Shown here piece by piece: positions 3,884 to 28,491 of a stretch of DNA of 39,594 nucleotides. Both the position numbers and the translations under genes were made by a program. Location: NCBI GenBank assembly GCA_020631335.1, contig JAHDHK010000014.1:1-39594 (forward strand), given 5' to 3'. How positions within the stretch are numbered: the stretch's first letter is position 1; every line of letters begins with the position of its first letter. The notes beneath the pieces are model-generated. The model worked only from the letters and a program-made list of their open reading frames with translations, did not search any database and was not told the origin of the DNA. Source of the DNA: Chromatiales bacterium (GTDB lineage Bacteria; Pseudomonadota; Gammaproteobacteria; Granulosicoccales; Granulosicoccaceae).

Positions 3884-5707
3884 TCAGGCGGCCTTTCTGG
3901 CGCTGGCCGATGATGACAGCAATTGTTCATCGCGTTCGACTTCCGCAATGCCATGAGGCAGCGTAAAGGTGAAGACAGCTCCTTTACCTTCAAGCGAATC
4001 GGCCGAGATCTCACCACCGTGTGCGGAGATTATTTCACGGCATATCGGCAACCCGAGCCCGGTGCCACCCGATCCGTCTTTCGTTACTGACGACTGCGAG
4101 AATTTATCAAAAACGATCTCAAGCTCACCGGACGGTATACCCGGGCCATTGTCTGCAACACAAACCTTTATTGCGTTACCCGTGTCTTCAGTGGTCACTG
4201 TTATTTCACTGTTTTCAGGTGAAAATTTAATAGCGTTACTCAAAAGGTTGCGCATCACCTGATCTATTTTCGATGCATCGTACACCGTAGTGAGTGGCGT
4301 ATCTGAATCTTCATGCTTAATCGTCAGCCCGCGCTCTTTGCACTGCCCCCGTAATTCGGACACGACCGATCCGATCGATTGATTCAGATCGCCGTTGTAG
4401 AACTGGTAGTTCATTTTCCCGGACTGAAGCTTGGTCAGATCCAGCAGATTATTCACCAGACTCAACAACGTGTTGGCACTGTCCTGTATGGTGGTGAAAT
4501 ATTTCTTTACCTTCTCGGGGCTGGCTTTTTCAGAACGTTTTACACCTAGTGAGGAAAACCCGATGATTCCCTGCAACGGGGTTCTCAGCTCATGCGTCAT
4601 ATTGGCAAGAAACTCTGACTTGGCATCATTGGCTTCCTGTGCCGCCAGCGTCGATGCAATCAGCGATAACTCGGCTTCTTTTCTTTCATTAATATTTTCG
4701 GCAAACACCACAAAGATTTTTTCATCATCCAATCTTACTTCACTGATTACCCACTGCAGGTGAACAATGGCACCCACACCGTTACGCATAGAGGATTCAT
4801 GCACCTTCGAAAATATTTCAATACCATTGTCCGGCTGCCCCAGCGCAGTGACATATGCCGCATGATCCGACTGCTCAAGCGACATCACTTCCGATAAATG
4901 CTGCCCGATCATGTCATCTCTTGAATTGACGAACAGCACTTCTGCTGCACCGTTTAATTCGGTAATAACTCCGGCATCATTCAGGGTGATAATGCCATGC
5001 AGTGCAGAATGCATGTAGGCATCTTTGCGCATCTCACTCTCTTTAAGCTTACGCGACATCCGGTTAAACGACACCACCGTTTGCGCCAATTCATCTGAAC
5101 CTTTCACCGGCAACTGGTACCCCAGCTTACCGCCTGCCAGTTTTTCAGCCCCTTTCTTCAGATACCACAGCTGATGCGTAAGATAAGTACCCAGCAGATA
5201 TGAAAACAGCGCGACTAACAAAATTTCTACAACGGCTATACCGGTCAGCGTGCGCTGGGAACTCTCCAGCAACTGGGCAATTTTGTCATTGGAAAATCCG
5301 ATTTCCACCCGACCGTAGGTATAACCGGATTCATTGATGGGGGAACTGATATCAAACACTGCATCATCGAGGCTCGCCATATCGGTGTCCGGCGTAAACT
5401 GCCGCGCCAATGCTTCCTCAACACCGGCCTGTGATAACACCAGGTCATCCTGCCCGATGACACGTACGTAGACCACTTCGGCGTTAGTACTGATCTCTTC
5501 GACAAAACTGTCCAGCAGTGCCAGATCAGTCGCGATGACTGCATTTTTGGTGGCATCGGAAAAGAGACTGACGGTGGAGTTTGCCCGCTGAACAAACTGT
5601 TCCTGATTCGATTCACGCAGAAACTTCTGAGCGCTTAAAACCATCAACACCAGCAACACCCCCTCGATGAGCGCGATGCCGAGAATCGTTTTTAGTCGGA
5701 AAGACAT
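3884..5707 (-). CDS. Membrane sensor histidine kinase (periplasmic sensor-HAMP-PAS-HisKA-HATPase)
   Basis: The start is either the ATG at 5722 or the in-frame ATG at 5707; the latter has AGGTGAG just upstream and is used here. Residue numbers below are from the 5722 start. One membrane helix is at 11-31, a periplasmic domain at about 32-158, a second helix at about 159-180, HAMP to about 230 and a PAS domain at about 235-350. The HisKA H-box THELRTP has phosphoacceptor His377. The ATPase domain keeps the N-box Asn (LLSNAIKF, 496), DNGPGI (524-529) and GTGLGL (553-558), so the kinase should be active. There is no receiver domain. It is the last gene of an operon with a PhnD-like binding protein and a receiver/pseudokinase, so the binding protein probably docks on its periplasmic domain. 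Confidence 0.93.
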   Translation of the reverse strand: MSFRLKTILGIALIEGVLLVLMVLSAQKFLRESNQEQFVQRANSTVSLFSDATKNAVIATDLALLDSFVEEISTNAEVVYVRVIGQDDLVLSQAGVEEALARQFTPDTDMASLDDAVFDISSPINESGYTYGRVEIGFSNDKIAQLLESSQRTLTGIAVVEILLVALFSYLLGTYLTHQLWYLKKGAEKLAGGKLGYQLPVKGSDELAQTVVSFNRMSRKLKESEMRKDAYMHSALHGIITLNDAGVITELNGAAEVLFVNSRDDMIGQHLSEVMSLEQSDHAAYVTALGQPDNGIEIFSKVHESSMRNGVGAIVHLQWVISEVRLDDEKIFVVFAENINERKEAELSLIASTLAAQEANDAKSEFLANMTHELRTPLQGIIGFSSLGVKRSEKASPEKVKKYFTTIQDSANTLLSLVNNLLDLTKLQSGKMNYQFYNGDLNQSIGSVVSELRGQCKERGLTIKHEDSDTPLTTVYDASKIDQVMRNLLSNAIKFSPENSEITVTTEDTGNAIKVCVADNGPGIPSGELEIVFDKFSQSSVTKDGSGGTGLGLPICREIISAHGGEISADSLEGKGAVFTFTLPHGIAEVERDEQLLSSSASARKAA

Positions 5708-5783
5708 ATTCTCACCTGGCATAAGGCTCCAGCCAAATCGTGGAGCCCGGTATAGCGATGTTGTTTAGCCCGGTAAGGGCCGA

Positions 5784-6629
5784 TCAGGTGCCGTTGATCA
5801 GCAAGTCGAGCAGGTCAAGACCGAGTTCACGCACATCATCCCATCGCGCATCATCGGCGGCCTCAACACCTTTCCAAGATAGCGCTTTCAGGTAGTTCTG
5901 CCCCTCTTCAGTGGTTTCGAGGCTGATCAGTGCCTGCTGAATCTTCTGCACAGATTCTGATTGCACACGAGGGTGTGCTGCAAGCGCATGTGATGTATAT
6001 GGCTCGGTGGTCCACAGAATGCGCAGTTGATCGCGGATGCCTTCGTCGATTGAATTCAGGGTCCGCATCACACCACCACCGGCAGGATACAACCCCCGGG
6101 CAACCGATAGATAAACCGAATCGTGAGAAGAGACATACTTGGGTTCTACGTCAATATTCTCGTTACTCAAATGTGCTCGCGGCAATACACTTGCAGCAAA
6201 TGCAGCGGGTGCGGGAAACGCCATTACTGAACCCTGCAGTTCGCTCAAGTCAGCAATCGGACTGTCTTTTTGAACCACCACAATTCCCTTGATCTGCTTA
6301 CCCTTTGCCTTGGCGAAAGCCTCGTAACCCGGCGCTTCGTGGAAAACCGTATAGTGATACGGATTCATGTAGCTGATATCGTACTCACCCTGCGCCATAC
6401 GTTTTTCGAATTCGGGAATCGAGGGTGCGGTTGCGAAGCGTAATGCTATACCGGTTTTTCCTTCCACATACTTGAGTATCGGCCCCCAGTTGCGAGCCAG
6501 TTTACCGGCTGACTGTTGCGGAACCACACCAAACGTCAGCGTTTTTGCAGGTTCAGAGCCGGCCGACAAACCACTGGCAAAAGTGACCAGTGTAAAAAAA
6601 ACACTAATGGCTTTGAGTTTTTTAATCAT
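5784..6629 (-). CDS. Orphan PhnD-family periplasmic binding protein, probable sensor subunit
   Basis: The protein has 281 residues with a signal peptide (MIKKLKAISVFFTLVTFASGLSAG) and a good GGGGA ribosome site 4 bp before the ATG. The fold is that of phosphate/phosphite/phosphonate binding proteins: TLTFGVVPQQ at the first strand, YDISYMNPYHY in the first lobe, VVVQKDSPI, then SHDSVYLSVARG in the second lobe. The loop that binds the phosphonate oxygens in PhnD (usually DPxSTSG) reads FPAPAAFAAS here, without the Ser-Thr pair, so phosphonate is unlikely to be the ligand. There are no cysteines, which argues against thiol-type arsenite binding as in AioX. No permease or ATPase is nearby; the gene sits between two signalling genes, which points to a sensing role. 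Confidence 0.88.
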   Translation of the reverse strand: MIKKLKAISVFFTLVTFASGLSAGSEPAKTLTFGVVPQQSAGKLARNWGPILKYVEGKTGIALRFATAPSIPEFEKRMAQGEYDISYMNPYHYTVFHEAPGYEAFAKAKGKQIKGIVVVQKDSPIADLSELQGSVMAFPAPAAFAASVLPRAHLSNENIDVEPKYVSSHDSVYLSVARGLYPAGGGVMRTLNSIDEGIRDQLRILWTTEPYTSHALAAHPRVQSESVQKIQQALISLETTEEGQNYLKALSWKGVEAADDARWDDVRELGLDLLDLLINGT

Positions 6630-6651
6630 GATATCCCCTGTTTTTCCAGAT

Positions 6652-7719
6652 TCAGGCGGTTAATGGCAAGTGCAGGCTCAGCACCGTGCCATCTTCGTCG
6701 TTGGCTGCAGTTATCTTTCCCTGATGCAGCCTTGCTACTTCCTTGGCAATGGACAGACTTAGTGAGGCACCGTGCATTGCCGCGTGTTCAGCGGGAGAAG
6801 TTTCCTCTTCCATGAGCGCCTCGAGCACTTCGGGGTCGGCCCGACGGTCACATCCGCTGAACACAATTTCCAGTTGATCATCCACCCGTCGGGTATTTAA
6901 CACCAGGCTGGCCCCGGGCTTACTCAAGTTCAAAGACTGTTGCAGGATCGTGCTCAGGCAACTTGCAATCAGTTCACGGTCGACGCTAAGTTGAGCCTTT
7001 ACGTCTTCGCCCACAGTCAGGCTGATATCCCTTGCCTCAGACAATGGCTTTCCTGAGTACACCACCTGACTCATCAAATATTCCGAGCTGACTTCATCTT
7101 TTTGCAGGCTGTGCTGATCTGCACGCAGGCGTGATAACAACATAACCCTGTCCACCAGCGATTGCAGTTCTCTGGCGGAATCGTGCACCAGATTGAGCCA
7201 CTTCATTCTTTCCTCGGGCTCGCTGGCGTCATTGGCCGAGCGTAACAACTGCAAGGGCCCGATAATGCCGTTTAACGGTGCCCGGGTTTCACTGCTGAAT
7301 AACGACATCACTGACGATTTGAGCTGGTCAATCTCTTCCATTGATTTCAATTTCAAAAAGACACTGAGCTTTGCTTCGAGCTCATCTTCATCAAACGGTT
7401 TGATCAGGTAGTCGTCAGCGCCGGACTCATAGCCGATAATTCTGTCCGCCGTGGTGTTTTTAGCAGACACCAGTATGACTTTTATGCTGTTGGCCGGTGG
7501 CGGCAGTTTGCGGATCTCTGTACACACTTCGTACCCGGTCAGTCCAGGCATCATTATATCCAGCAATACAATATCCGGTTTGAAACTGGACACCAGCTCG
7601 AGCGCATCCGTGCCGTTTTCAGCAGTTTCCAGCTCGTACTGCTCATCAAGCAATTCTTCATACAACATCAAGTTGGTCTGGTTGTCATCAACCGCCAACA
7701 CTCTGCTCTTGGTAGACAT
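6652..7719 (-). CDS. Response-regulator receiver fused to a degenerate histidine kinase (pseudokinase)
   Basis: The protein has 355 residues; GGAG lies 5 bp before the ATG. Residues 5-125 form an intact receiver with the acidic pair D11-D12, phosphoacceptor D54 (LLDIMMPG), S85 and K107 (LIKPF). Residues about 130-355 align with a HisKA-HATPase core in which every catalytic element is lost. The H-box reads SSETRAPLNG, with Ser143 where the histidine should be. The N-box reads TILQQSLNLS, with no Asn. DNGPGI is replaced by SGCDRRADP, and the G2 loop by HGASLSLS. It probably takes phosphate from the partner kinase encoded downstream and uses the pseudokinase as a binding or dimerisation output. 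It is the first gene of the operon; the PhnD-like gene starts 22 bp after its stop. Confidence 0.9.
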   Translation of the reverse strand: MSTKSRVLAVDDNQTNLMLYEELLDEQYELETAENGTDALELVSSFKPDIVLLDIMMPGLTGYEVCTEIRKLPPPANSIKVILVSAKNTTADRIIGYESGADDYLIKPFDEDELEAKLSVFLKLKSMEEIDQLKSSVMSLFSSETRAPLNGIIGPLQLLRSANDASEPEERMKWLNLVHDSARELQSLVDRVMLLSRLRADQHSLQKDEVSSEYLMSQVVYSGKPLSEARDISLTVGEDVKAQLSVDRELIASCLSTILQQSLNLSKPGASLVLNTRRVDDQLEIVFSGCDRRADPEVLEALMEEETSPAEHAAMHGASLSLSIAKEVARLHQGKITAANDEDGTVLSLHLPLTA

Positions 7720-7809
7720 CAGCGCTCCAAAATCGTGAACTGACGCGGGCAGGTTTCAACGTTCAACGCAGAAACATGGCCCAGATGGCAGTTTAACGGC
7801 CTACCAGAT

Positions 7810-7825
7810 CACATTCTTGAATGTG
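7810..7825. promoter_or_regulatory. Palindrome upstream of the PhnD/kinase operon
   Basis: CACATTC-TT-GAATGTG is a perfect 7-2-7 inverted repeat about 90 bp upstream of the first gene of the minus-strand signalling operon. Its position suits an operator, but no known regulator consensus is recognised. The surrounding 7720-7990 region holds no convincing gene. Confidence 0.3.
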
Positions 7826-7990
7826 CTGAGATGATCAGTGCAGTTTCTTTAGGTAAATCAGTAGAATGGATTCATATTTTTACGTCTTTAACAACCACCG
7901 GGCAGCGTAGTTTCGGCGGCTTGAAACTCCTGACAACGGCTTCGGTGAACAACGATCTTCTGTGGTATCAGCGACAATGCCTGCTGTTTT

Positions 7991-8302
7991 TTACAGCACG
8001 GCAGATTGCACGGTTTTATTAACCTTGTTTCTTCGATTGCGCTGAAAATAGCGAAAGAATCCATAGAGACTGACACTGATCCACACAATTTGTATGATCG
8101 CCGATGCCAGATTGAAGTCATGGAACAAGCTGATCAACACGAGTGTGGCAGCACTTCCGTTATATACGCAATATTGTATGGAGTTTCCATCCAGCCTGCC
8201 AAACTGCAAAGCCGAATAGCTACCCACGTATACCAGTACGCCAAGCAGGCCGATCACATCAAACAACACACCTTTGTCAGCAAATTGCGATGACAATTCC
8301 AT
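7991..8302 (-). CDS. Small integral membrane protein, CBU_0592-like family
   Basis: The product has 103 residues if it starts at the ATG at 8302, which is preceded by AAGGAAGG at a spacing of 8; a longer in-frame start at 8347 has weaker support. Three or four hydrophobic segments are visible: VLFDVIGLLGVLVYVGSYSA, then SAATLVLISLF, then ASAIIQIVWISVSLYGFF. A basic cytoplasmic tail (RYFQRNRRNK) ends the protein. The pattern GLLGVxxYxxxYxxLQ followed by a short loop and YxxxN matches small uncharacterised membrane proteins of the CBU_0592 type. No biochemical function is known to me. It lies downstream of, and co-directional with, the LysR gene but 300 bp away, so it is probably transcribed separately. 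Confidence 0.65.
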   Translation of the reverse strand: MELSSQFADKGVLFDVIGLLGVLVYVGSYSALQFGRLDGNSIQYCVYNGSAATLVLISLFHDFNLASAIIQIVWISVSLYGFFRYFQRNRRNKVNKTVQSAVL

Positions 8303-11753: not shown

Positions 11754-14186
11754 TTATGCAGCCTTGTTGAAACCGTTCGGATCACTGTTCAGATTATCAA
11801 TGGCCCCGGGCACCTGATCACTGGAAACCGGCCTTGAGTAGAGAAACCCCTGCACCATGTTTATACCCAGGCCGGAAATCTGATCGAGCTGCCAGTCCGA
11901 TTCAACCCCCTCGGCAACTGTCTCCAGTCCAAGCACACCGGCGATCGACGCTATAGATGCGGTGACGGATTGCGAAATATCGGATGGTCCGTCCAGCTTG
12001 GCAATAAACGATCGATCAATCTTTAGTGTATTGATTGGCAGATCCTGCAACCGGCTTAACGATGAATACCCCGTGCCAAAGTCATCCAGCGCGATCTTAA
12101 TTCCGGCTTCGCTTAGTTGCTGCAGTGATTTGCTTACCCACTCCGAATCCGACACAAATACACTTTCTGTCAGTTCAATTTCTATCGCGTCTGCACTGAG
12201 ATGATGACGCTCCAGCGTCAGCAGTACATCCTGCACAAATGCCGGCTGCATAATCTGATGAACAGAAACATTAATCGCAACGCGCAAACCAAGATTGGTT
12301 TGTGTCTTCCATTGCGCCGCCTGTCGACAGGCCTCGTTCAATACCCAGCTTCCCAGCGCTGGCATCAAACCGCATTCTTCAGCCACCGAAATAAATTCTA
12401 CCGGCGACACCATGCCGCGTTGGGGGTGGTTCCAGCGTAGCAATGCCTCCACCGCATCGACACGATTCTGTGCCAGATTGTATTGCGGCTGGTAGTAAAG
12501 TTCGAGCTGATCAGTCTCGATGGCCAGTGCAAGATCATGCTCGGTGCGCAGTCGATTCTCGAATTCTTCGGCCATTTCCCGATTGTACGCCTGCACGATG
12601 CTTTTACCTTCGAGCTTGCCCTGTCTCTTGGCAAAAAACATCGCGTAGTCTGAAGTTACCTGAAGTTCTCCTGCACTGTCGGCATCCTGCGGATACAAAC
12701 TGATGCCGATACTGGCGCCAATTTTCAGCACGCCCTGCTCTATTGTGAATGGATTTTCCAGAGTCTCCAGAATGTTACCGGCAAGCCGCTGCACCTCAGC
12801 CGGTGAGTGCGGTATAAAAAACAATGAAAACTCATCTCCCCCCAGTCGTGCTATACACATACGCTCATCAGTACACTCATGCAGCCGTGCCGAAACCATT
12901 TTCAGCAGCGCGTCACCAATCGCATGCCCCATGGAATCATTGATCGATTTGAAACGATTCAAATCGATTGTCAGCAATGCCACACTTGCAGACGACAAGT
13001 TTGCTTTTTCTATTGATTGCCCCAGTTGCTGACCGAAGTATCGCCGGTTCGGCAAACCGGTCAGTTCATCGTGTGTTGCCTGATACTGCACCCGCCTGGC
13101 CAGTGTTGTTGAGGATACCGCCATGGCCAGACATACCAGCACCAGCATCGAATCAATCGCCAGACTCTTTAACGCTGCCGCCTCCACCTTACGCGCATTG
13201 TCGATGGTTCTGTCGATAGTATCGTTGGTTAAACGCTCGACCTGGTTGCTTACCTGAAGCGACAGCCTCTGCCATTCAGCCAGTGAAATACTATCGTTGT
13301 CCGCCACAGGGATTGCCTGGGTCAGCCGCTGCTTAACAATCACATACTGCGATTTATACTGGCTGATCACAGCATGAAGATCTGCATCCAGAATGGACGC
13401 ATCATTGGTGGATTCAGCAAACTCTTCAATGGCAAAAATTGCCTGATCAGCGTACCTCGCCTGTTGAAACACACGAAATAATAACCCGTCCGCCCGGACT
13501 TGCTCCAAAGACCCGTTTTGCCGTTTTATCAGGTAACTTTCGAGCAACGCGCTGATCTGCGAAGTGGACTCGCTCAGATTCCAGATAGAATTTTTAAGAC
13601 TATGAGAGGCCAGAACCTCCTGATAGTTTTTCTCCGGCAGAAAGTGAGTTCTCAGTCGAAGACTGTTTACCTGTTGTATCAGCGTGCCGTATGCATCAAA
13701 CAACTGCATCCGCATATCGTTGTCGCGCTGTGACAATGGAATGAGCTTCTGCAGGAATATGGACGATGAAGACTGCGAGATTTTTCGCATACCGTCCAGC
13801 AACTCGAATATCAGTTGCTCCACCGACTCTTCAGTGTATCGATGCTCGACGAAACGGAACGGCGTATTCCTCGACGCACGGATTTGATCAATGGCTTTGT
13901 CGAAGAGTTGATCGGATTGATTTTTGAGCTGTTCGTAACTATCGACTACCTGAGGGTCGGAACTCTCTATGGCGAGCATGGTATGCAGATACGCACGCTC
14001 CTGCCCCAGGCTGTTCGCCAGCGCAAAAAGCGCGCTTTCGGGTTTGGTCGACATGCGCAGTTGTGCTGCGCCGCTTCGCTGGTGAAACGCCTCAAGCCAG
14101 AACACAGTGCCAAGCCAGAAGATCAACAGCGTTGAAATCACACTGATGGCGATCAGATTCTTGTGAACACCGGTATGTATTCTCAC
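11754..14186 (-). CDS. Membrane-anchored GGDEF/EAL cyclic-di-GMP enzyme
   Basis: The protein has 810 residues and starts at a GTG (14186). Membrane helices at about 11-32 and 343-363 enclose a 300-residue, mostly helical periplasmic sensor. The GGDEF domain follows (DELTGLPNRRYF near 373), with an intact catalytic motif GGDEF at 449-453 and no recognisable RxxD inhibitory site before it. The EAL domain keeps EALLRW (580), ELTES, DDFGTGYS (701-708), KIDRSF and AEGVES, so phosphodiesterase activity is expected. Either or both activities are possible. It acts at the inner membrane and should control c-di-GMP in response to an unknown periplasmic signal. It is not in an obvious operon. Confidence 0.95.
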   Translation of the reverse strand: MRIHTGVHKNLIAISVISTLLIFWLGTVFWLEAFHQRSGAAQLRMSTKPESALFALANSLGQERAYLHTMLAIESSDPQVVDSYEQLKNQSDQLFDKAIDQIRASRNTPFRFVEHRYTEESVEQLIFELLDGMRKISQSSSSIFLQKLIPLSQRDNDMRMQLFDAYGTLIQQVNSLRLRTHFLPEKNYQEVLASHSLKNSIWNLSESTSQISALLESYLIKRQNGSLEQVRADGLLFRVFQQARYADQAIFAIEEFAESTNDASILDADLHAVISQYKSQYVIVKQRLTQAIPVADNDSISLAEWQRLSLQVSNQVERLTNDTIDRTIDNARKVEAAALKSLAIDSMLVLVCLAMAVSSTTLARRVQYQATHDELTGLPNRRYFGQQLGQSIEKANLSSASVALLTIDLNRFKSINDSMGHAIGDALLKMVSARLHECTDERMCIARLGGDEFSLFFIPHSPAEVQRLAGNILETLENPFTIEQGVLKIGASIGISLYPQDADSAGELQVTSDYAMFFAKRQGKLEGKSIVQAYNREMAEEFENRLRTEHDLALAIETDQLELYYQPQYNLAQNRVDAVEALLRWNHPQRGMVSPVEFISVAEECGLMPALGSWVLNEACRQAAQWKTQTNLGLRVAINVSVHQIMQPAFVQDVLLTLERHHLSADAIEIELTESVFVSDSEWVSKSLQQLSEAGIKIALDDFGTGYSSLSRLQDLPINTLKIDRSFIAKLDGPSDISQSVTASIASIAGVLGLETVAEGVESDWQLDQISGLGINMVQGFLYSRPVSSDQVPGAIDNLNSDPNGFNKAA

Positions 14187-25136: not shown

Positions 25137-26109
25137 ATGAAACGACTACTCGGGAAAATTGCTCTGTTGGCAGCAGCACTGCCACTGGTGATTGGACTTT
25201 CGACCACCAACGCGCACGCAGAGAAAATTCGAATTGCGCTGGCTGAAACACCTTCCGACGAACTGGCTGCATTTTTTGTTGCACTCGAGCGCGCAAAGGC
25301 CAACGGTCTCGACTATGAGTGGACTGCCTTCTCTGATGAAGAGCTTGCCATTCAAGCAGTACTCAGCGGACAGATGGATATCGGTTTCGGCACACCCTAC
25401 TCTGCCATGCAACGCTCAAAAGCACCGCTGCGAATCATCTTTCAACTGTCAAAACTCAAGTTTTTCCCGGTGACCAATAAAAAGTACAGCACACTGGAAG
25501 AACTGGATGGCGAACCGATTCTGCTGCACTCACGTGGTGGTGGTACTGACTCAATCGCCAATGTCATCGAAGACAAAATGAGCATCAAATTCGGCAAACG
25601 CTCTTACGTACCGGGTTCGGCAAACCGTGTAGTTGCACTGGTTGCCGGCCAGGCGGACGCAACCATTATTGATCTTTCGAACAAAAACGATGCGTCAGCA
25701 CGCAGACAAATTTAATGTGCTGCCGATGTTCGATGTTGAAGCCAGTGATGAAGCACTGTTTGCCAATCTCGACTGGATCAAAAGCAACGAGAAAGATGTT
25801 CAAATCTTTGTGGATGCACTGGCAAGCACCTGGGCAGACATGAACGCCGATCCAACCATGGTTGCTAAAGAAACCAACCCGGACGGCCCCATCGGACAAC
25901 TGCCCAAAGAAATACTGGGCGAGCTCGACAACTTCTACACCGATGCAGTCGCTGGCGGATTGTACGACCCGATGGGTGGTGGAGAGAAAGCGGCGATGGC
26001 AGATATGGAATGGTATAGCCAGGCCGGTCAGCTGGAAGGCGATGTATCGACACTGAACATCGAAGACTTCTGGTACCTCGCGCCACTAAACGCTGCCACT
26101 GCCAAGTAG
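25137..26109 (+). pseudogene. NitT/TauT-type ABC substrate-binding protein, frameshifted
   Basis: Two overlapping frames together make one protein. The first (25137-25715) has a signal peptide (MKRLLGKIALLAAALPLVIGLSTTNAHA) and the first lobe of an NMT1/SsuA-like binding protein (KIRIALAETPSDELAAF...VLSGQMDIGFGTPYSAM...ALVAGQADATIIDL), then stops early. The second resumes in the +1 frame as ADKFNVLPMFDVEASDEAL and runs to NIEDFWYLAPLNAATAK at 26109. Removing one base from the A5 run at 25683-25687 joins them into 323 residues, the normal family length. This is either a real frameshift mutation or a homopolymer sequencing error. It is the first gene of an ABC operon, so loss would disable uptake. 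The ligand is unknown. Confidence 0.85.
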
Positions 26110-26130
26110 CGGTTACAGACCTCACCAGTC

Positions 26131-26160
26131 GGCCCGGCATGTTTGCCGGGCCGCTCTTTT
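26131..26160 (+). terminator. Intercistronic terminator or attenuator in the ABC operon
   Basis: A perfect 9-bp GC-rich stem, GGCCCGGCA/TGCCGGGCC, with a 4-nt loop (tgtt) is followed by GCTCTTTT. It lies 21 bp after the binding-protein stop and 28 bp before the first permease. Partial termination here would keep the binding protein in excess over the membrane subunits, a common design in ABC operons. Confidence 0.75.
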
Positions 26161-26187
26161 AACGCGACACACCCGGGGTTATAAGGC

Positions 26188-26946
26188 GTGAATCGTCCTT
26201 TATTACTTAAACTGTTGTCTGCCGCCATTGTGTTTGGTGCATGGGAGATTGCCGGACGCATACCGGTGAGCTATGCACTGCCCACTTTTTTTGAAGCCAT
26301 GGCAGCACTGTTTCGGATGGCGTTCGACGGTTCTCTGTGGACTGCCTATGCCGAAACTTTAAAACCACTTGCCATCGGTGTGCTGATCTCCGCCGTGCTC
26401 GGAATAACCATTGGACTGTGGGTAGGCTTAAGCAAATGGTTCGACTGGTTGTTTTCCCCTATTTTCATCGTTATGCAAGCGGCACCACTGGCAGCGCTGA
26501 TCCCGCTGCTGGTCATGATGTACGGCATCGGCTTAACCTCGAAGGTATTTGTTGTGTGCATCATGGCAATGCCGGTAATCGTGCTTAACACCGCAGGCGC
26601 GGTGCGTAATACACCCACGTCGCTCACAGAGATGGGGCGATCATTTCAGGCAAGCTGGTGGGAAGTGATCCTGAAAATCGTTATACCTGCAGCATCACCG
26701 GTTATTTTCTCCGGTCTGCGGCTTGGAGTCTCTGCCGGCTTTATCGGCGCTATCTTGTCGGAGCTCAAAATCACGCCGACCGGTGTCGGCGACATCATCA
26801 CCTACAGTCGCTCGATAGCAGACTATGCCAGCATGTACGCAGCGATCTTCTCCATTATTGTTCTGGCAGTTATTTTTTTGAATCTGCTTGAAAAACTCGA
26901 ATTCTATTTATTTGAAGGAAATGCCCGTGGCTATGCCTCAGACTGA
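26188..26946 (+). CDS. ABC transporter permease (NitT/TauT type), first subunit
   Basis: The protein has 252 residues from a GTG. It has about six hydrophobic helices and the permease EAA-type loop near EMGRSFQASWWEVILKIVIP followed by GLRLGVSAGFIGAILSE, which docks on the ATPase. The N-terminal segment (LLSAAIVFGAWEIAGRIPVSYALPTFFEA) matches SsuC/TauC-like permeases. It sits after the attenuator and before the ATPase, whose start lies inside its 3' end. A second, different permease follows the ATPase, so the translocation pore is probably a heterodimer. Confidence 0.92.
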   Translation: MNRPLLLKLLSAAIVFGAWEIAGRIPVSYALPTFFEAMAALFRMAFDGSLWTAYAETLKPLAIGVLISAVLGITIGLWVGLSKWFDWLFSPIFIVMQAAPLAALIPLLVMMYGIGLTSKVFVVCIMAMPVIVLNTAGAVRNTPTSLTEMGRSFQASWWEVILKIVIPAASPVIFSGLRLGVSAGFIGAILSELKITPTGVGDIITYSRSIADYASMYAAIFSIIVLAVIFLNLLEKLEFYLFEGNARGYASD

Positions 26947-27733
26947 AACCGTGCACGAGACTGCAACCACAGCAGCACCGGACATCGCAGTATCTGCACG
27001 TAATGTGTCTAAAAATTACGGGCCGGTTGAAGCATTGAAAGACTTGTCGCTGGAGTTTCCACGCGGCCAGTTAACCTCTTTGCTGGGACCATCAGGCTGC
27101 GGCAAAACCACCCTGCTTAAGATCATCGCCGGATTGCTGGAACCTTCAGGCGGAGATATACAGGTCGATGGTAAGGCGGTTACCGGCCCCGGGCCTGATC
27201 GCGCCTTTGTATTCCAGGACTTTGCGCTACTGCCATGGGCGTCGGTGATTCGCAATGTTGCATTTGGACTCGAATTGCGTGGCATCAACAAGTCCGAACG
27301 TGAAGACATTGCCTCACGTTACATAAAAGACGTAGGGCTTGCCGGCTTTGAACACAGCTTTCCACATGAGCTTTCCGGTGGTATGCGACAACGTGTGGGA
27401 CTGGCAAGAGCGCTATCTGTAGATGCAGATGTTCTGCTGATGGACGAGCCTTTCTCTGCAGTAGATGAGCAAACACGACGCAAGTTTCAGGAAGACTTGT
27501 TAGCGCTGGTCGCGAATGAAAATAAAACGTTTATCTTTGTAACCCACTCTATAGAAGAAGCAGTTTACGTTTCAGATCAGATTGCCATATTACTGCCAAG
27601 GCCAAGCCGCGTATCAGATATCATCCGCCCGACCGGCCTTCGCGAAAAAGACTCTACCAGTATTCGCCGCGACCCTGAGTATCTCGATATTGTCGATGAG
27701 ATCTGGGCATCACTTAGATCTTACGTGGAGTAA
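26927..27733 (+). CDS. ABC transporter ATPase (NitT/TauT type)
   Basis: The start is placed at GTG 26927, with AAGGA 7 bp upstream; ATG 26921 is too close to that site, and ATG 26933 and TTG 26888 are also in frame. The product is 268 residues. All nucleotide-binding motifs are intact: Walker A GPSGCGKTT, Q-loop VFQDFALLPW, signature LSGGMRQRVGLARAL, Walker B VLLMDEPFSAVDE and switch His in FVTHSIEEA. It overlaps the first permease by 20 bp and is followed 5 bp later by the second permease, so the three are co-translated. It powers import of the ligand delivered by the frameshifted binding protein. Confidence 0.95.
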   Translation: MAMPQTETVHETATTAAPDIAVSARNVSKNYGPVEALKDLSLEFPRGQLTSLLGPSGCGKTTLLKIIAGLLEPSGGDIQVDGKAVTGPGPDRAFVFQDFALLPWASVIRNVAFGLELRGINKSEREDIASRYIKDVGLAGFEHSFPHELSGGMRQRVGLARALSVDADVLLMDEPFSAVDEQTRRKFQEDLLALVANENKTFIFVTHSIEEAVYVSDQIAILLPRPSRVSDIIRPTGLREKDSTSIRRDPEYLDIVDEIWASLRSYVE

Positions 27734-27738
27734 CTAAC

Positions 27739-28491
27739 GTGCAACTGTTCGGCATTCGATTACCGGCGATGTCCTCACTGATTATATGGGGCATTGTCTG
27801 GGAAGTATTCGGGCGACTGGAAATTTCGTTTTTCGTACCACCGCTTAGTGCTGTGGTAACCACCCTGTTTGAAGTCATCGGCTCTGCGGCGTTTCAAAAG
27901 GCGCTGTACGAAACCGCCTATGCTTTTGCATCCGGTGTGTTCTTTGCCGTGGTCATCGGTATACCCACCGGTATCATGATGGGCAAAAACCGCCTGCTCG
28001 ATGAATTGCTGCTGCCCTGGGTAAATATTTTTCTCAGCGCTCCACTGACAGCACTGGTACCTGTGTTGATGGTGTTGTTCGGCTTTGGCATGAAGTCGAT
28101 CATCATTACCACCACGCTGTTTGCTATATGGATCATTATTCTCAATGCGCGCGCAGGCGTTATGCAGATAAATCGCTCGCTGCTGGAGATGGCACGAAGC
28201 TTCGGCGCAAGCCCGTGGGCTGCATTCAGTAAAGTGTACTTCTGGGCGGCACTCCCAGAGATCCTGGGCGGCGTACGTATCGGTGTTATCCGTGCGGTCA
28301 AAGGTGTCATCATCGGACAACTACTGATCTCTATAGTCGGCTTCGGTGCACTGTTTGAACTCTACGCCAACAACTTTCTCATGGAACATTTCTGGGCAGT
28401 TCTGGTGGTGCTGTTTGCGATGGCTTTTACCATTTCAGAACTGCTGGGATACCTCGAACGTCGGGTCGCCTACTACGCCGCCAAGCGATAA
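27739..28491 (+). CDS. ABC transporter permease (NitT/TauT type), second subunit
   Basis: The protein has 250 residues from a GTG, starting 5 bp after the ATPase stop. It has six hydrophobic helices. The EAA-type loop is EMARSFGASPWAAFSKVYFW, followed by ALPEILGGVRIGVIRAVKGVIIGQ. It is clearly related to, but distinct from, the first permease, suggesting a heterodimeric pore. The C-terminus ends in a short basic tail (YLERRVAYYAAKR) on the cytoplasmic side. It is the last gene of the operon. Confidence 0.92.
   Translation: MQLFGIRLPAMSSLIIWGIVWEVFGRLEISFFVPPLSAVVTTLFEVIGSAAFQKALYETAYAFASGVFFAVVIGIPTGIMMGKNRLLDELLLPWVNIFLSAPLTALVPVLMVLFGFGMKSIIITTTLFAIWIIILNARAGVMQINRSLLEMARSFGASPWAAFSKVYFWAALPEILGGVRIGVIRAVKGVIIGQLLISIVGFGALFELYANNFLMEHFWAVLVVLFAMAFTISELLGYLERRVAYYAAKR

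Follow-up and report, generated by a model that had tools for sequence, protein, structure and literature searches.

What does a PhnD-type periplasmic binding protein do in an operon that encodes a receiver protein and a histidine kinase, and no transporter? The question is raised by three tightly spaced minus-strand open reading frames (ORFs) at positions 3884-7719 of the window, i.e., the whole 39,594-nucleotide stretch of DNA analysed here, which occupy 7719-6652, 6629-5784 and 5722-3884 and encode proteins of 355, 281 and 612 amino acids, respectively. The ORF coordinates confirm the order given in an earlier note on this DNA, namely receiver-pseudokinase, PhnD-like protein and membrane kinase on one strand with small gaps (22 bp between the first two genes and 61 bp between the last two), and the ORFs of the window confirm that no ABC permease or ATPase gene adjoins the operon. 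The PhnD-like protein and the kinase are separate ORFs with their own stops, and not one polypeptide as in a TtrS-like kinase. A promoter scan returned no more sites than were counted in shuffled sequences.

The PhnD-like protein (5784-6629, minus strand) carries an N-terminal signal peptide and matches the Phosphonate-bd family PF12974 with E = 2e-63 (214 bits; cut-off 27), residues 33-263 aligning to profile positions 1-242, a match that spans the whole mature protein. Its AlphaFold2 model (mean pLDDT 92) matched PtxB, ArrX, XAC2383, PhnD and AioX in the PDB, with Z of 24-27 against PtxB and PhnD. The pocket differs from that of the transport proteins PtxB, HtxB and PhnD, whose oxyanion motif is STS-H (PMC5700983): in alignments the anion loop reads A143-F144-A145 (6195-6203, minus strand) in place of S-T-S, the motif histidine is kept as H169, and the position of the tyrosine cap is taken by a near-invariant His214. 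The earlier note was right that the phosphonate loop lacks its Ser-Thr pair and that the protein contains no cysteines. The AFA-H pocket is itself nearly invariant, each of the three loop residues being present in 84 of 86 relatives, and this constancy suggests one ligand common to the subfamily. It is unlikely to be phosphonate, phosphate or arsenite, which supports the earlier view that the signal is something else.

The membrane kinase (3884-5722, minus strand) is organised as transmembrane helix, sCache-like periplasmic domain (residues 33-157), second transmembrane helix, HAMP, PAS, HisKA and HATPase. Pfam assigned the HAMP, PAS, HisKA and HATPase_c domains and gave a sub-threshold sCache_3_2 match in the periplasmic part, while the structure model of the sensor matched sCache/PAS domains of the WalK, CitA and LapD type. 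Its transmitter (3953-4624, minus strand) is complete, with the motifs THELRTP (H377), NLLSNAIKF, DNGPG and GTGLGL. The transmitter is of the PAS-HisKA type and its family relatives have the NtrB type, which we regard as a natural exchange. In the tree the window sensor grouped with HisKA and GGDEF rows and a small number of NtrB-type ones, and it was contained in none of the starred sets.

Evidence for what the binding protein does comes from its relatives. Contigs scanned with a single PhnD sequence as query gave no matches; searched with a PhnD alignment, they yielded 338 relatives, 80 of which were kept. At 71 of 74 testable loci the gene after PhnD encodes a sensor of the TM-sCache-TM-HAMP form, with a median gap of 16 bp. 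Among 48 genomes of the window's family the two genes were both present in 15 and both absent from 33, a split whose chance of arising at random is 1/C(48,15), or about 1e-12, if the relatedness of the genomes is ignored. The distance matrices of PhnD and sensor also correlate (r = 0.77, against values of at most 0.18 in 2000 permutations). The window PhnD itself was placed outside the Granulosicoccaceae clade (support 99/95), with no supported nearest relative.

What follows the sensor is far less constant. The sensor half (residues 1-230; 5033-5722, minus strand) is a module that is conserved beside PhnD and is attached elsewhere to other outputs: the transmitter varies among NtrB-type, PAS-HisKA and hybrid kinases, GGDEF (as in L071 and L222, of the same sensor family) and GGDEF-EAL. 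By their coordinates, 12 further PhnD proteins, mostly distant, have a gene of the same sensor family next to them; the nine stretches that were read, with ten such pairs, carry GGDEF, GGDEF-EAL, kinase or PAS outputs. The gene upstream of PhnD also varies among relatives, and no further example of the receiver-pseudokinase turned up in the genomes searched, so the three-gene order is not conserved. On these comparisons the conserved unit is only the two-gene pair of PhnD and membrane sensor, which recurs across many marine and soil bacteria, Neptuniibacter and Marinomonas strains being marine examples with the intact pair. Of the three-part sensing system proposed earlier, the PhnD-kinase pair stands and the three-gene order does not; the proposal that an orphan PhnD serves the membrane kinase, and not a transporter, is supported by adjacency, co-inheritance and the matrix correlation.

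Given what was computed here, i.e., gene content, the conservation and co-inheritance of PhnD and sensor, the changed pocket, and dead and intact motifs, we consider it probable that the PhnD-like protein acts as the "antenna" of the membrane kinase, the two together forming a bipartite periplasmic receptor. From this we infer a path of docking, phosphotransfer and output. A small ligand would be held between the two lobes of the PhnD-like protein, which, depending on its ligand state, would dock on the kinase's periplasmic domain, which is small and sCache-like. From there the change would be relayed by the second transmembrane helix, HAMP and PAS, and the phosphorylation state of the HisKA/HATPase core would be altered. 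The receiver encoded by the upstream gene would most likely be the first to accept the phosphate, although the target of the kinase might instead be an unlinked receiver.

The upstream gene is the real oddity of this locus. Its product (6652-7719, minus strand) combines a receiver (residues 7-118) with degenerate HisKA (residues 144-200) and HATPase (residues 248-354) domains, recognised by Pfam with E = 2e-28 (Response_reg), 6e-9 (HisKA) and 9e-6 (HATPase_c). The receiver (7366-7701, minus strand; PF00072) retains an intact phosphorylation site, D11, D12, D54, S85 and K107. Aligned with the window kinase and five relatives, the kinase module (6658-7290, minus strand) has Ser143 for the H-box histidine and GASLSL for GxGLGL, and has lost the N-box asparagine and DxGxG; judged by these motifs it is catalytically dead. 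In the window genome, the usual output of the PhnD-sensor pair is replaced by this fusion of a receiver to a dead kinase. The output arm lacks a DNA-binding domain, as noted earlier; that this is unusual does not hold for the family, since the commonest neighbours of the operon's relatives are c-di-GMP enzymes (REC-EAL, REC-HD-GYP and REC-GGDEF) and an output without DNA binding is thus normal for the pair. As it can neither bind DNA nor phosphorylate, the protein would most likely act by protein-protein contact. It may be a phosphorylation-switched partner of an active kinase, or else a phosphate sink or docking factor that feeds other receivers, plausibly including the c-di-GMP branch of the relatives.

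The explanation that competes best with such a role is that the gene could be decaying, a kinase remnant, and that a c-di-GMP response regulator encoded elsewhere is the true output. We think this less likely than not, while giving it considerable weight. The full-length protein was compared with 57 related genomes, where apart from itself matches were restricted to the receiver region or extended little further, and its kinase part with 369 genomes of the class, where the best match, at 29% identity, was to ordinary kinases; the lack of any close relative in either set counts in favour of a remnant, as do the c-di-GMP neighbours of the operon's relatives. A candidate for the real output also exists: a second locus of the same genome (C139) encodes an NtrB-type kinase of the same sensor family, has no PhnD gene (tblastn matches for PhnD relics were at chance level only), and includes a REC-HD-GYP-like regulator, cut by the contig end, with 65% identity over 234 aligned positions to a congener's REC-HD-GYP protein. 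Against decay, the frame is open across 355 codons with a base composition by codon position that resembles the neighbouring genes, the receiver site is intact, and the gene reads in the same direction as PhnD with 22 bp between them, an arrangement that suggests co-expression.

The second locus also allows a more speculative arrangement, in which two kinases, the PAS-HisKA kinase of the window and the resident NtrB-type kinase that lacks a PhnD, both depend in trans on a single PhnD-like receptor whose pocket is of a non-oxyanion kind, with the receiver-pseudokinase as the phosphorylation-switched allosteric partner that joins both pathways. We hold this to be unlikely. If it is true, the near-invariant pocket would represent a single signal that many marine and soil bacteria read into c-di-GMP and other outputs.

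It is highly improbable that the PhnD-like protein is instead a transport binding protein with an unlinked ABC permease and ATPase, its adjacency to the kinase being incidental or reflecting dual use. PF12974 is mostly a transport family and other, weaker matches to it exist in the same genome. However, PhnD strictly co-occurs with the sensor within the family and adjoins it at nearly all loci, only 2 of the 74 loci that contain a PhnD ORF have transport genes within three genes of it, and the S-T-S part of the STS-H motif has been lost; the transport assignment was rejected on the gene neighbourhoods.

An arsenic-type AioX/ArrX three-component system is less credible still: although ArrX (E = 8e-21) and AioX (E = 1e-16) rank with the nearest solved relatives in the profile comparison and the three roles resemble those of the window, only the histidine of the AioX pocket (Y88, C106, Y131, S161, S163, H192 and D210; PMC5908839) has an identical counterpart (I71, N89, gap, A143, A145, H169 and gap), AioR binds upstream of a sigma-54 promoter whereas the window output has no DNA-binding domain, and no arsenic genes were noticed when the window ORFs were read by eye. 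AioX identity was rejected on these pocket residues. AioX-AioS-AioR and ArrX/ArxX likewise join a PhnD-family sensor to a membrane kinase and a response regulator (PMC5908839), but the gene order of AioXSR differs, the oxyanion loop is S-N-S in AioX and A-F-A here, and the window protein has no cysteine. The parallel drawn earlier is valid as an analogy of mechanism and fails as family membership, with six of seven pocket residues missing.

Other known systems share parts of this design. We take the closest published one to be the periplasmic receptor-diguanylate cyclase pair XAC2383-XAC2382 of Xanthomonas citri (Teixeira et al. 2018, J Biol Chem 293:10767, listed in the references of PMC10380989). 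As in the window, the gene of a PhnD-fold protein lies beside one for a membrane protein whose periplasmic part is a Cache domain, and in the structure comparison XAC2383 (5ub3) ranks with the best matches to the window PhnD (Z 25.9, rmsd 2.2 Å, 245 residues). Homologues in which the cytoplasmic outputs are exchanged have reportedly been described there too. This strong fold match contrasts with a profile match that is not significant (subfamily profile against the XAC2383 sequence, E = 0.087 over 48 residues), and none of three distant PhnD paralogues tested as XAC2383-like matched 5ub3. The outputs differ, i.e., a GGDEF cyclase in XAC2382 against a kinase and receiver-pseudokinase, and so does the pocket, which lacks the S-T-S loop whereas XAC2383 is said to prefer phosphate-containing ligands. 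PtxB, HtxB and PhnD share the fold and the conserved histidine of STS-H with the window protein and differ from it in belonging with a transporter (PMC5700983). In the tetrathionate and thiosulfate kinases TtrS and ThsS (PMC5408782) a PhnD-like domain is also the periplasmic input of a histidine kinase, but it lies within the kinase, whereas the window encodes it as a protein of its own, which would act on an sCache-like domain. In NspS-MbaA of Vibrio cholerae (PMC8967002, PMC5646818), too, a free-standing binding protein in the periplasm governs a membrane signalling protein and c-di-GMP; it differs in that NspS binds polyamines and has a c-di-GMP enzyme as its receptor where the window has a kinase. 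In the literature searched, no single paper combined the subjects of PhnD, diguanylate cyclase and periplasmic binding proteins.

About ten binding proteins that feed kinases have been characterised (PMC9602780), and the characterisation of those wired to signalling receptors rather than transporters is still rare. The window contributes a transmitter exchange that occurred in nature, the unusual receiver-pseudokinase, and a genome whose two kinases may depend on the same PhnD receptor, so that action in trans could be tested cleanly by genetics. Most recognisable outputs around the subfamily point to c-di-GMP. As one nearly invariant pocket is combined with many interchangeable outputs, identifying the ligand in a single species would probably allow the entire subfamily to be annotated.

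The operon described in the earlier note, with its three genes on one strand, was borne out by open reading frame coordinates and Pfam domains. All three lie on the minus strand: a 355-aa REC-pseudokinase (7719-6652; receiver, HisKA and weak HATPase_c domains), a 281-aa PhnD-type binding protein (6629-5784; PF12974, Phosphonate-bd, scoring 214 bits where the cut-off is 27) and a 612-aa sensor histidine kinase (5722-3884; HAMP, PAS, HisKA and HATPase_c domains, with an sCache_3_2 match below threshold), separated by gaps of 22 bp and 61 bp, respectively. A GGDEF-EAL protein gene is found ~ 4 kb upstream (11754-14186, minus strand). Elsewhere in the window, a substrate-binding protein gene of an ABC operon (25137-28491) appears as two overlapping ORFs in different frames (25137-25715 and 25633-26109), a split that a frameshift or an error in sequencing would produce.

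Relatives of the binding protein (46-60% identity) are present in the window's own family, Granulosicoccaceae, and a wider search of genome contigs matched 338 stretches, from which 80 loci were retained, originating from Vibrio, Neptuniibacter, Marinomonas, Photobacterium, Psychromonas, Desulfosediminicola, a SAR324 bin and others. The gene after PhnD carried a window-type sensor half in 71 of the 74 loci with a PhnD ORF (median gap 16 bp), while an ABC ATPase or permease lay within three genes of PhnD in only two of the 74. The conserved order proposed earlier thus holds for PhnD and sensor, but not for all three genes, and the binding protein is an orphan as suspected, with no always-co-occurring transporter partner found in the neighbourhoods searched. 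Of the family's 48 genomes, 15 had strong matches to both PhnD and the sensor and 33 had neither, a count that ignores kinship, and the PhnD and sensor distance matrices were correlated at r = 0.77 (2000 permutations, all ≤ 0.18), to which common ancestry contributes in part. Given this conservation, it is very likely that the PhnD receptor works with the membrane kinase. A 513-aa ORF, possibly a fusion, has a PhnD relative as its C-terminal half (L070, 6557-8098, minus strand; 49% identity) with no recognised sensor gene adjoining. In another stretch, a family sensor kinase is broken by two stop codons (L206, 4592-6883, minus strand), apparently a pseudogene or assembly error.

The predicted structure of the binding protein (mean pLDDT 92) matched PtxB, ArrX, XAC2383, PhnD and AioX at Z 23-27. 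In PtxB the oxyanion is held by an STS-H motif (PMC5700983), the counterpart of which is A143-F144-A145 and H169, confirming that the phosphonate loop lacks its Ser-Thr pair; the protein also has no cysteine, as first read. Of the seven listed AioX pocket residues (PMC5908839), the histidine alone is common to both in the alignment, and the PtxB Tyr cap and its Asp partner align with His214 and Gln38. These window-protein residues show little or no variation among 86 relatives, as do N89, Y91, H92, S168, G184-186, T190, W206 and T212, and alignment to solved relatives suggests that the near-invariant positions line the pocket. The natural inference is that the subfamily has one common ligand other than a simple phosphorus or arsenic oxyanion, which favours the earlier suggestion of a signal other than phosphonate or arsenite. 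The PhnD-type fold can switch ligand class, as in the sterol-binding BstB (PMC10942540). No description of this near-invariant AFA-H pocket subfamily was found in the limited literature collection searched.

The sensor half of the kinase was predicted (mean pLDDT 93) as a pair of long membrane-crossing helices, with a small PAS-like domain in the periplasm. Its best matches were an integrative model of WalK (Z 16) and, at Z about 10-11, sCache domains including that of CitA and one of LapD type. As modelled, the periplasmic domain suits a docking role, and it may also bind ligand directly.

Across relatives the sensor half (TM-periplasmic-TM-HAMP) is constant and the remainder of the protein varies. 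Most carry an NtrB-type kinase with an AHEINNP box; a PAS-HisKA transmitter is found in the window kinase and in stretch L122, and hybrid kinases, GGDEF (L071) and GGDEF-EAL (L204, L205) are also joined to the sensor half. Transmitter type tracks the sensor tree closely, with five changes for three classes compared with 22.6 in shuffles. Among ten neighbouring regulators, picked for variety and not at random, REC-HD-GYP proteins accounted for five, sigma-54 regulators for two, and REC-EAL, REC-HDOD and REC-SpoIIE for one each. Given these outputs and neighbours, an output free of DNA-binding domains is ordinary here: its absence in the window stands, but the earlier view of it as unusual does not. 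Distant PhnD paralogues (about 20-28% identity) likewise adjoin distant sensor-family members with GGDEF, GGDEF-EAL or kinase outputs. XAC2383-XAC2382 of Xanthomonas citri reportedly pairs a PhnD-like receptor with a Cache-domain membrane protein, with outputs exchanged; this is the same general kind, already known, of which the window system is a variation.

To read its kinase motifs, the 355-aa protein was aligned to the window's sensor kinase and to five relatives. In it, the phospho-acceptor His is replaced by Ser143, the N-box asparagine and DxGxG motif are missing and GTGLGL has become GASLSL, whereas the 612-aa kinase has the full set, including H377. Since its receiver retains D11, D12, D54, S85 and K107 and the kinase motifs are lost, the 355-aa protein should in principle accept phosphate without kinase activity of its own. 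The gene has an unbroken reading frame and a codon-position base composition similar to its neighbours. Judged from gene order, the REC-pseudokinase is probably the partner of the PhnD-kinase system, a role for which no description was found in the literature collection. In the overall scheme that we consider most likely, PhnD would dock on the kinase in a ligand-dependent manner, the signal would run onward through HAMP and PAS, phosphate would pass to the upstream receiver and the REC-pseudokinase would act via protein contact. Soluble proteins in which a histidine-kinase module comes after a receiver also occur near other PhnD-sensor pairs (L199, 357-2072; L065, 3289-4737); such partners may recur, with no kinship to the window protein implied.

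A second contig of the same genome, C139 (L197), encodes a 537-aa sensor-family kinase (5255-6868, minus strand), 53% identical to that of a congener, and a divergent receiver gene (7350-8024, plus strand), cut by the contig end and 65% identical to a REC-HD-GYP protein. Relatives of this locus have PhnD between kinase and regulator genes, in an interval of 1.0-1.3 kb; in C139 the interval is 481 bp and no PhnD trace was found there. In the sensor tree, C139 groups inside the clade of the resident family; the window lies outside that clade both there and in the PhnD tree. One PhnD of the subfamily and two full sensors were found in the genome (estimated 94% complete), an arrangement for which the literature collection yielded no description. 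Because the C139 interval is without PhnD and both trees set the window outside the clade, the genome seems to combine a resident kinase whose receptor has been lost with a second system, different in origin, that retains its own, and we hypothesise that one PhnD receptor may be shared by both kinases.
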